Below, piece after piece: positions 4,010 through 6,712 of a stretch of 23,252 nucleotides of DNA (positions are counted from its first letter, which is position 1; each line of letters begins with the position of its first letter). The stretch covers positions 1-23,252 of IMG/VR virus record IMGVR_UViG_3300028840_000649. One strand, 5' to 3'. Both the position numbers and the translations under genes were made by a program. A model generated the notes under the pieces. That model saw only the letters and a list, made by a program, of their open reading frames with translations, had not been told where the DNA came from and ran no database searches. Source of the stretch: a virus.

Positions 4010-5562
4010 AGCTCTCTGGCCCTGAACTGCTGAAGCGTTTCTCCAAGGCCAAGTCAGCGCGATCAAACTGGGAAGATTTGTGGCAGGACATCTACGATCT
4101 GGTGCTTCCTGCGCGTGAAGGTTTTTACGAAACGACCCCCGGCGAGGAAAGAACCGAGGAAATCTTTGACGAGACTGCGCTGGTTTCGCTCGCTGATTTC
4201 GTTTCCCGCATCCATCAAGGCGTCATTCCAGCGCACTTGATGTGGTTCAGGCTGGAGCCGGGTCCAGAAGTGCCGCCGCAGCAGCGGGCAGAACTGCAAG
4301 AGCAGCTTGATCTGGTTGGCAAGTTCATCTGGGAAGCCATCGTGAACTCCAACTTCGTCAATGAGGCTCAGGAAGTTCTGACCGATATTGCGATCGGCTG
4401 GTCAACGCTCATCATCGACGACGGTGTTGATGGCAAGCTGTTGAGCTTCAAGTGCGTCCCGCAATGCCAAACCTTCTGGGACACAGGCGGCCCCAACAAG
4501 GAGGTTGACGGCGTGTTCCGGGTGCGCCACAAGGTTCGCATCAAGGACATCAAGCTCATCTGGCCGGACGCCAAGATCAGCGATGCGCTTCAGGGCAAGG
4601 CCGATGGCGATCCCGAAGCAACGACCAATCTGGTCGAGGCCAGCTACCGCGATTGGAGCCGCAAGGAAACGCCGCGCTACTGCTATCAGGTGGTTGCCGG
4701 TGAAGACAAGTCGCTGGTGATCGATAACTACGAGGAAGGTCTGGGCTCGCGCCCGTATGTGACACCACGCTGGTCGGTTGCGGCCGGTGAGGTCTATGGC
4801 CGCGGCCCGTTGGTGTCGGCGCTGCCGGCGATCCGCACCACGAACCTCGTCACCGAAATGATTCTTGAGAACTCGCAGATGGCGATTTCTGGAATCTGGC
4901 AGGTGGACGACGATGGCACGATCAACGTGGATAACGTCGAGATTGTTCCCGGTGCTGTGTATGCGCGCCCCACTGACAGTCGCGGCCTCGAGCGCACTGA
5001 TAGCCCAAGCAATTTCAATGTGGCCGACATCGTACTGAGCAACCAGCAGGAGAACATTCGCAAGGCCCTGTTCGCTCAGAATCTTGGCCCATTGGATCAG
5101 ACGCCGCGTTCTGCTACGGAGATCCAAGCCCGAATGCAGGACTTGGCCGAACAGACCGCAGGGCCGTCAGGACGATTGAAAGTCGAATGGCTGGACAAAA
5201 TGATCCAGCGCATCGTGTGGCTGTTGACCCGCCGTGGCGTATTGGAAATGCCGCGTGTCGATGGCCGCCAGGTCCGTATCGTTGCCAAATCACCGCTTGC
5301 CCGCGCACAGAAGTTTGAAGAAATCGAGCGCATCCGTGGCTTTGCCGGTGACGTTGTGACGATGTTGGGGCCGCAGGCCAGCCAGCTTTACATCGATCAG
5401 GACGAGCTGGTTGACGAACTGCAAATGAAGTGGGAAGTGCCGCAAAAGATGGTACGCGATCAAGCCAACCGAGAGAGGATGATGCAGGGCATGGCTGAAG
5501 CGGCTCAGGAACAGGGAATTGTACCGGGCGGTCTGCCTGCTCAAGCTGAAATTGGGCAATGA
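4006..5562 (+). CDS. Portal / head-to-tail connector protein (Bbp21 type)
   Basis: The product has 518 residues, close to T7 gp8 (536). It should form the dodecameric ring at one prohead vertex through which TerL threads DNA and to which the tail adaptor binds. The N-terminus (GPELLKRFSKAKSARSNWEDLWQDIYDLVLP) and the following ETTPGEERTEEIFDETALVSLADFVSRIHQGVIPAHLMWFRLEPG are characteristic of the podoviral head-tail connecting family (Pfam Head-tail_con). The middle has RPYVTPRWSVAAGEVYGRGP, a segment conserved in these portals. The C-terminus is helical and Gln/Met-rich, suiting a crown or barrel. ATGA overlaps join it to both neighbours. Confidence 0.94.
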   Translation: MKLSGPELLKRFSKAKSARSNWEDLWQDIYDLVLPAREGFYETTPGEERTEEIFDETALVSLADFVSRIHQGVIPAHLMWFRLEPGPEVPPQQRAELQEQLDLVGKFIWEAIVNSNFVNEAQEVLTDIAIGWSTLIIDDGVDGKLLSFKCVPQCQTFWDTGGPNKEVDGVFRVRHKVRIKDIKLIWPDAKISDALQGKADGDPEATTNLVEASYRDWSRKETPRYCYQVVAGEDKSLVIDNYEEGLGSRPYVTPRWSVAAGEVYGRGPLVSALPAIRTTNLVTEMILENSQMAISGIWQVDDDGTINVDNVEIVPGAVYARPTDSRGLERTDSPSNFNVADIVLSNQQENIRKALFAQNLGPLDQTPRSATEIQARMQDLAEQTAGPSGRLKVEWLDKMIQRIVWLLTRRGVLEMPRVDGRQVRIVAKSPLARAQKFEEIERIRGFAGDVVTMLGPQASQLYIDQDELVDELQMKWEVPQKMVRDQANRERMMQGMAEAAQEQGIVPGGLPAQAEIGQ

Positions 5563-5870
5563 GTGAAGACGGAATCGGGAAATCCAAACGACCACCGAAG
5601 AAAACACCACGAGCAAAAGCAAAGCAGTATCTAGGGCCGGATGGCTTGCGCCGGCCACCGAAGGTTGAGCGCGAGCTCAATGAGTCCTTTGCCATTGTGT
5701 TTTCAAGCGCAGCAGGCAAGAAGACGCTCGACTACCTGAAGTCGATCACGACGAACCGGGTGCTGGAACCGGGTTTGCCGGAAAATACCTACTCGTATCA
5801 GGAAGGAGCCCGTTGGCTGATGGGCGTAATATCAACACGAATCAAAGACGGTGAGGAAAAGAAACCATGA
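5559..5870 (+). CDS. Bbp19-like phage protein
   Basis: The product has 103 residues. The N-terminal 35 residues are Lys/Pro/Arg-rich and likely disordered. The remainder (ESFAIVFSSAAGKKTLDYLKSI, then SYQEGARWLMGVISTRIKDG) fits the Bbp19-like domain of Bordetella phage BPP-1 and many podoviruses: Phe...Phe.s..Gk..LdyL, followed by an EGaR...I helix. The role of that domain is not firmly known; it is consistently found between portal and scaffold, so a head-assembly role is likely. ATGA overlaps link it to the portal upstream and the scaffold downstream. Confidence 0.85.
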   Translation: MSEDGIGKSKRPPKKTPRAKAKQYLGPDGLRRPPKVERELNESFAIVFSSAAGKKTLDYLKSITTNRVLEPGLPENTYSYQEGARWLMGVISTRIKDGEEKKP

Positions 5871-6712
5871 AATATTTACTGTGGCTCTTGTGGCTGGTTG
5901 TTCCACGTGAAACAGAAGGGGGCGAAGGTGACAGCGGTGGAGAGGGCGATGCTGGCGGTGATCCTGCTGGTGATGGTGATGGCGGTGGCGACGGTGACGG
6001 CGCAGCTGGTGAGCGCAAACCGCTTGGGGGGTCTGACCCGGAAGGCAAACCGGACTGGCTGGCTGACAAGTTTTGGAATCCTGACCTCAAAGCGCCGCGA
6101 ACCGAAGTCCTTGCCAAATCCTTCAACGAGCTCGAGGGCAAACTCCGCACCAAGACGGAAGAACTGAAGGAAGAAGTGCTTGCGGATTTGCGCGCACAGG
6201 CCCCGGAGAAATACGAAGTCAATCTGTCCGAGGATCTGAAGCTGCCGGAAAACGTCGAGTTCAATCTGACCGACGAAGACCCGCTGGTGGGCTGGTTCTC
6301 AGGTTTCGCCAAAGACATTGGACTCACTCAGGAGCAGTTCGACAAGGCGATCAACGAGTACGTTGGCATCGAGATCGGCAACATGCCGGACATGGAAGCG
6401 GAGATCGGCAAGCTGGGCGACCACGGCCAGGATCGACTGCTGCGCGTCCACAACTGGCTTGAAACAAGGCTTTCAGAGGATGAGCTGTCTTCGATGAGCT
6501 CGCTACTGAACTCAGCGGAGCAGATCGCCGCATTGGAGAAGCTGATGAAAGCGTCCGGCCCCAACGACTTTGACGGCGATTCTGGCGACGAGCCGTTGAC
6601 GCTGGAAGAACTGCGCGAGATGCAAAACGACACGCGTTACTGGCAGGACAAAGACCCGGCGTTCATCAAGAAAGTCGAGGCTGGCTACCAGAGGCTTTAC
6701 AAAAACCAGTAA
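5867..6712 (+). CDS. Scaffolding (capsid assembly) protein
   Basis: The product has 281 residues (T7 gp9 has 307). It should guide capsid polymerisation inside the prohead and then leave. The N-terminus is a hydrophobic leader (MKYLLWLLWLVVP), followed by a tract of about 30 Gly, Asp and Glu residues (17-47). The scaffold body starts at GKPDWLADKFWNPD (about 60-73) and has a long helix (KSFNELEGKLRTKTEELKEEVLADL, about 84-108). The C-terminal third is acidic and helical and ends RDPAF-like KDPAFIKKVEAGYQRLYKNQ, the usual basic capsid-contact end. ATG 5867 has GAGG ten bases upstream and an ATGA overlap, so the leader is probably translated. A parS-like site lies in its codons 11-16. Confidence 0.9.
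   Translation: MKYLLWLLWLVVPRETEGGEGDSGGEGDAGGDPAGDGDGGGDGDGAAGERKPLGGSDPEGKPDWLADKFWNPDLKAPRTEVLAKSFNELEGKLRTKTEELKEEVLADLRAQAPEKYEVNLSEDLKLPENVEFNLTDEDPLVGWFSGFAKDIGLTQEQFDKAINEYVGIEIGNMPDMEAEIGKLGDHGQDRLLRVHNWLETRLSEDELSSMSSLLNSAEQIAALEKLMKASGPNDFDGDSGDEPLTLEELREMQNDTRYWQDKDPAFIKKVEAGYQRLYKNQ
5899..5914. other. parS-like ParB-binding site
   Basis: The 16 bases TGTTCCACGTGAAACA match the bacterial parS consensus TGTTNCACGTGAAACA at every defined position and are the variant described inside Bacillus subtilis spo0J. parS is the centromere-like site where ParB loads as a clamp. It lies inside the scaffold gene, coding residues within VVPRET; in another frame it reads FHVKQ, the peptide such sites typically encode. 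About 15 fixed positions make a chance hit in 23 kb very unlikely. Binding by host or phage ParB is inferred, not shown. Confidence 0.7.

Follow-up and report, generated by a model that had tools for sequence, protein, structure and literature searches.

Do virulent phages place, protect or inherit their DNA by means of the host partition machinery? This question is raised by a parS site, a type of sequence bound by bacterial ParB, that lies in a virion gene of a podovirus; dependence on host chromosome segregation is not generally expected of lytic podoviruses. In the window, i.e. the whole stretch of 23,252 bases analysed here, all fixed bases of the parS consensus are matched at 5899-5914, in agreement with the original prediction. 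The sequence comparisons described below make it likely that selection at the DNA level maintains this 16-mer as a true host-type parS, read by host ParB.

The parS site and the gene carrying it

The following features of the window are concerned.

5899-5914, + strand: parS site TGTTCCACGTGAAACA, with 0 mismatches to the consensus TGTTNCACGTGAAACA; recurs as DNA in relatives
5904-5909, strand not assigned: CACGTG core inside parS, sole copy in the window
5867-6712, + strand: scaffold (capsid assembly) gene, 281 aa; from gene order, a sub-cut-off PF05396 match and a 10-sequence alignment
5867-5905, + strand: hydrophobic N-terminal leader MKYLLWLLWLVVP, of a type conserved among relatives; parS lies at the leader-linker junction
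5915-6016, + strand: low-complexity Gly/Asp/Glu linker, directly 3' of parS; aligns poorly across relatives
5850-5866, + strand: ribosome-binding context GGTGAGGAAAAGAAACC, upstream of the start codon; common to relatives

The gene at 5867-6712 is flanked by a portal-like connector (PHROGs) and a major capsid gene (PHROGs and Pfam). The same gene order was found in MEP301 and CKB-S2, whose annotations at this position are 'capsid assembly protein' and 'scaffolding protein'. The scaffold label is drawn from this order together with the match of the product to the T7 capsid-assembly family PF05396, which at 24.5 bits stays under the 27.1 cut-off. The parS site covers the final base of codon 11 and codons 12-16 (GTT CCA CGT GAA ACA), which read VPRET. 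The FHVKQ reading announced for another frame is present in an 89-aa ORF with a TTG start at 5898, and no sign was seen of this ORF being a gene.

Several different virion genes in this phage family encode a short, hydrophobic N-terminal leader that ends in proline, in the window at 5867, 6839, 7710 and 10965 and in genes of L144, L290 and L291 (examples are MKYLLWLLWLVVP, MFLLRFILSLIFP, MKAIFDKLILGLLRFLP and MFDRFLVWVLSRFIP). The scaffold of an annotated relative, Pelagibacter phage Hodr, has no such leader. These leaders are possibly a shared assembly-targeting peptide.

The count confirmed that CACGTG occurs once in the window, versus 8.1 on average over 100 dinucleotide shuffles. Two relatives are nearly identical to the window, L002 at 99.96% over 11,434 bases and L003 at 99.92% over 12,714 bases. 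The contig of L003, G002, is 37,845 bp long and its 123-bp exact terminal overlap indicates that it is probably complete; it contains one parS. Its parts outside the window are devoid of CACGTG, so that the window and the rest of G002 hold one copy, the parS, versus about 13 expected over three pieces (the tally was made in pieces, window letters standing in for the shared middle). In the same way, the sole CACGTG is the parS in G069, a 33-kb contig with a 98-bp terminal overlap (8.0 expected), and in L287 (3.4 expected). On the contrary, G003 has one CACGTG (9.8 expected), which does not belong to a parS, and G067 contains 13 copies versus 15.6 expected. The scarcity of the hexamer is thus tied to parS in some genomes and not everywhere. 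G067 measures 39 kb, and a 367-bp repeat of its start, 90.7% identical, ends about 0.7 kb before the contig end. Of the 64 palindromic hexamers, 19 are missing from the window and the remainder of G002, for example GAATTC, GGATCC and CTGCAG, which suggests restriction avoidance. Since other palindromic hexamers are scarce too, the retention of the CACGTG of parS stands out.

Recurrence of the site as DNA in relatives

Relatives were gathered by scaffold, MCP, alignment-based and ribosome-site searches, the ribosome-binding context used as bait bringing in 17 stretches of DNA. Once near-duplicates such as L187 and L190 had been dropped, 15 distinct scaffolds with a readable start were compared. 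A parS was found in the leader of five, namely the window and G067 (16/16 each), L183 and L213 (15/16 each) and L287, whose site is the perfect palindrome TGTTCCACGTGGAACA, has one mismatch to the consensus and encodes CSTWN before the leader. No leader parS was seen in the other ten (L004, L005, L006, L007, L008, L188, L189, L191, L205 and L210), of which three carry parS elsewhere on their contig. G060, the contig of L188, contains an exact parS read as NVSRGTS in a repetitive gene, which by our reading is fibre-like. G004, the contig of L005, has a 15/16 site in a gene resembling that of G060, where our translation gives LVSRGTS and the adjacent repeats LVATGTT. The third, L279 (contig of L205), carries GGTTCCACGTGGAACA at 188. 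No parS at up to one mismatch was found in G003, G005 and G061, which are fragments of 16-25 kb, or in five annotated relatives. G002, G067 and G069 contain one parS apiece, that of G069 being a 15/16 match. A search for the 16-mer beyond the window, proposed in the original prediction, therefore yielded a single site in G002 and, in relatives, sites at other places and in other frames too.

In this family, parS was found as VPRET in the leader (four genomes), as CSTWN in the leader of L287 and as VSRGT in the repetitive gene (two genomes). In the scaffold tree, G067 and L287 are sisters (98/96), as are L183 and L213 (98/96); the VPRET scaffolds do not form one clade and the position of the window is unsettled. 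The sisters G067 and L287 bear parS in different frames, VPRET and CSTWN. That relatives keep parS while its gene and frame change suggests that ParB matters to these phages.

The codons of a conserved VPRET peptide could also happen to spell parS. This chance reading was the initial hypothesis and was dropped once L183, L213, G067 and L287 were found with the site. It would account for the absence of the site from the leaders of the early relatives L004-L008 and for the leader ending [VIL]PRE shared by relatives; L005 reads CTGCCACGTGAAGAA, showing that part of the core can come from LPREE codons. It is nevertheless extremely improbable, as this DNA reappears in other genes and frames, CSTWN being encoded by the L287 site, shuffled controls fail to reproduce it, and the flanks of CACGTG fall into two groups without intermediates.

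These controls were run on the close family, comprising 23 contigs and 299 kb including piece overlaps, with the near-duplicate G001 left out. The symmetric consensus TGTTYCACGTGRAACA was found exactly in 4 of the 23 contigs, and in 8 with at most one mismatch. When 1000 shuffled half-sites were searched in the same contigs, 999 had no exact match, and at up to one mismatch 988 reached no contig, ten reached one, one reached three and one reached five. The two top shuffles (three and five) are near-copies of parS, and one of them also gave the sole exact match. Nineteen shuffles keeping the CAC core gave no exact match, three near-copies among them reaching 3-4 contigs at up to one mismatch. 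Across 25 records, parS was present at up to one mismatch in 14, which include the near-duplicates G000-G002 and three with a core mismatch, and the reversed pattern in none. Finally, the ten flanking positions of 34 CACGTG copies from the 23 contigs and G069 (one G004 copy counted twice, pieces overlapping) showed 0-1 mismatch in 9 cases, 2-3 in none and at least 4 in 25.

Another outcome was conceivable, and had been named as the test of the claim: homologous scaffolds could have kept VPRET while varying its third-codon bases. The opposite was found, nearly all third bases being kept. In the four VPRET scaffolds (window, G067, L183 and L213), GTT CCA CGT GAA is present in 4/4 and ACA in 3/4. 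Over the whole gene, 81 residues (M and W excluded) are invariant. Of these, 15 use a single codon throughout the four scaffolds, V, P, R and E of VPRET being among them; the hypergeometric chance of keeping at least 4/5 VPRET codons is about 0.004, columns being treated as independent. Pairwise, the window and G067 have identical codons at 35% of conserved residues and at 5/5 in VPRET, while for the window and L183 the figures, 50% and 4/5, differ weakly. The VPRET genomes share some ancestry and are therefore not independent. By itself, this codon comparison carries moderate weight.

In a distant clade (L240, L258 and L261), the scaffold C-terminus contains parS read as VSRET. Of 203 residues identical in these three, 98 have an unvaried codon, and seven consecutive invariant codons surround VSRET, the codons on either side being variable. 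VSRET is absent at that place in 49 of 52 aligned distant scaffolds. No exact parS was found over 61 distant loci (416 kb). At up to one mismatch it was present in 6, which belong to two clades, the mismatch of one clade falling in the core, and 290 of 300 controls gave 0. The core-mismatch clade contains TGTTTCATGTGAAACA, at 1642 in L271, 2729 in L272 and 636 in L274, the L272 copy lying between the scaffold and major capsid genes; these loci are counted in the totals at up to one mismatch and are not regarded as parS. Hodr (L296) carries at 5018-5033 TGTTTCATTTGAAACA (complement TGTTTCAAATGAAACA), reading NVSNET, a parS-like palindrome with an altered central CG in the N-terminal part of the scaffold, near the corresponding place.

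As in bacterial chromosomal parS, the 16-bp consensus is matched at all fixed bases, and relatives, shuffles and codon comparison agree in that the site is maintained as DNA and not as peptide. Unlike them, it lies inside a phage scaffold gene and not near oriC or parAB, and for this reason it is named here a phage-borne host-type parS and not a chromosomal centromere.

Candidate readers of the site

The original prediction considered recruitment of host ParB or a phage ParB encoded outside the window. A phage protein with a ParB domain does exist, but the residues that would read parS appear to be missing from it. The ParB_N family PF02195 was found by profile search in G001, G002 and G005, and tblastn gave a partial copy at the contig end of G003; 16 other records, mostly fragments and including the parS-bearing G067 and G069, had no match. 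In G002 the protein has 540 aa and aligns with Spo0J/ParB, and no Pfam match was obtained for its large C-terminal part. Its gene adjoins an SSB-like gene and a recombination gene (G002:C1, about 2696-2965; L018 226-1848, minus strand). According to PMC7383237, ParB contacts parS through G170, K171, S172, R173, N178 and G201. In our reading of the alignment to Thermus Spo0J, whose GKAR was equated with Caulobacter 170-173, GKAR is replaced by SLTP and N178 and G201 are both replaced by R, R204 being kept. The 540-aa protein thus probably does not read parS.

The site could still be a centromere for this protein, given that it matches Spo0J/ParB, is encoded in G001, G002, G005 and partially G003, and could have been missed in G067, for which completeness is not claimed. 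Apart from the replaced contact residues, this is countered by G069, whose ends overlap by 98 bp and which has a 15/16 parS and no PF02195, by G005 and G003, which have the protein and no site at up to one mismatch, and by the lack of a ParA-type ATPase: PF13614 was found in 0/10 records, several of them fragments, a control profile being positive in 14/14 genomes. A centromere of the phage's own is therefore judged highly unlikely. Neither component sought for a phage-encoded ParABS, a ParA ATPase and a ParB with the parS-contact residues, was seen, and an exact parS in a phage without its own ParABS is present in G067, together with the 15/16 site of G069. In ten records there was no match to the integrase PF00589 either, nor to the polymerase PF00476. 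Ten non-structural ORFs were scanned, nine from G067 and one from G002, and five of those of G067 match PHROGs: an endonuclease, an excisionase-like regulator, a RecE-like exonuclease, an exonuclease-labelled family and an SSB.

A phage ParB-like protein without parS contacts, and parS-bearing G067 and G069 without PF02195, would make host ParB the likelier partner, so that the recruitment of host ParB envisaged in the original prediction is favoured. A hint of the host was sought in genome contigs, where 114 stretches matched a pattern and none encoded a relative.

We infer ParB binding, spreading and a benefit to the phage as follows. Host chromosomal ParB, a CTP-dependent sliding clamp, would load at the phage parS during infection and spread along the genome of about 38 kb, much of which could be coated from one site. 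This coat would link the phage genome to the ParA-ParB(-SMC) machinery of the host, by which it might be positioned or co-inherited in cells that grow slowly or divide, as phi29 reportedly does with Spo0J. By this analogy, an effect on genome placement is a tentative proposal. In PMC13190303, CFP-ParB decorates the DNA of an engineered lambda-parS in infected cells, which then lyse; ParB loading during infection thus appears feasible.

The same sequence evidence fits a decoy, in which numerous phage copies would sequester host ParB and impair chromosome segregation or ParB-dependent processes. The high copy number reached late could make one site per genome effective, but a sponge should have many sites, and G002, G067 and G069 have one each. 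This slightly favours placement or co-inheritance by host ParB, the ranking being weak, and the decoy is regarded as rather unlikely. Alternatively, ParB at parS may load SMC, or shield phage DNA from nucleases or loop-extruding defence. The recruitment of SMC at bacterial parS sites, described in PMC10197239, is in keeping with this role, which is considered unlikely.

Known systems and other viruses

That a phage can carry a host-type parS is already precedented by phi29, which reportedly uses host Spo0J (ParB) for spore trapping (Meijer et al. 2005). Four exact copies of TGTTTCACGTGGAACA, the reverse complement of the window site, were counted in phi29 (NC_011048), and 300 shuffled controls gave a mean of 0.007 matches at up to two mismatches. 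In both cases a lytic phage bears host-type parS in or beside structural and early genes. The two differ in the number of sites, four versus one here, and in that phi29 encodes a DNA polymerase of its own and infects a sporulating host, whereas no PF00476 polymerase was found here. P1 and extrachromosomal mycobacterial prophages carry their own ParA and ParB. They share with the present phage a partition site on mobile DNA and differ from it in that neither a PF13614 ATPase nor a parS-reading ParB was found here. Fusion proteins of the ParB-CTPase fold are known in phages (PMC12704722). The 540-aa protein, a ParB domain with a large C-terminal part, resembles these, and differs in probably not reading parS. 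Among the literature matches listed, there was no report of host-type parS as a general feature of natural phages or in this podovirus family.

In IMG/VR, parS was found in at least 120 stretches versus 35 for a control motif. The N position, which in known parS is T or C, was T in 102, C in 41, G in 4 and A in 2 of 149 sites from the 120 loci listed. If A and G estimate chance, most C-type sites do not arise by chance. The same bias argues against another DNA-binding protein that would read an identical 16-bp palindrome in place of ParB, an explanation held to be very improbable. Fifty contigs were examined (49 of the 120 listed loci and L012, many being fragments), and ParB_N was detected at E 0.001 or better in three, two of them over the cut-off. 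Thirty site-bearing ORFs were compared with PHROGs, 29 chosen by us from 50 site rows plus that of L012, and 22 of them match, including four terminases, two DNA polymerases, a connector, four tail or virion-lytic proteins and an endolysin.

In GenBank phages, a BLAST query consisting of parS with made-up flanks retrieved 397 records and 1113 places (both strands), with 180 records at 99% identity or more, versus 34 records, 3 of them at this level, for a scrambled query; these matches include core mismatches and near-identical isolates counted repeatedly. They are led by phages of Listeria, Microbacterium, Arthrobacter, Bacillus, Gordonia and Pseudomonas. A C-type query gave 224 records, with 14 Erwinia phages, and a Cronobacter phage was among the matches of the parS query. 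To our knowledge, enterobacterial hosts lack ParB; phages of such hosts are thus not free of parS matches.

Whether host-type parS is widespread among lytic phages whose hosts have ParB, and has been acquired by them repeatedly, is evenly poised. It would often be in-frame in terminases, portals, tails, polymerases and scaffolds, and would let phages without partition genes hitch-hike on host ParABS beyond the sporulation case of phi29. If true, phage genomes would in this way be placed and inherited when infection is slow or non-lytic, and the motif would be a sequence marker, on viral contigs, for hosts with chromosomal ParB.

Several viruses contain more than one site. L012, an unrelated short virus contig, has two exact parS in one gene (186-201 and 291-306, 105 bases apart), reading VSRET and VPRET. 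Three to five exact parS were found in L042, L085, L110 and PQ006097.1 (bajarodino virus 3), and the parS query matched a 6-kb record at 12 BLAST places, both strands counted.
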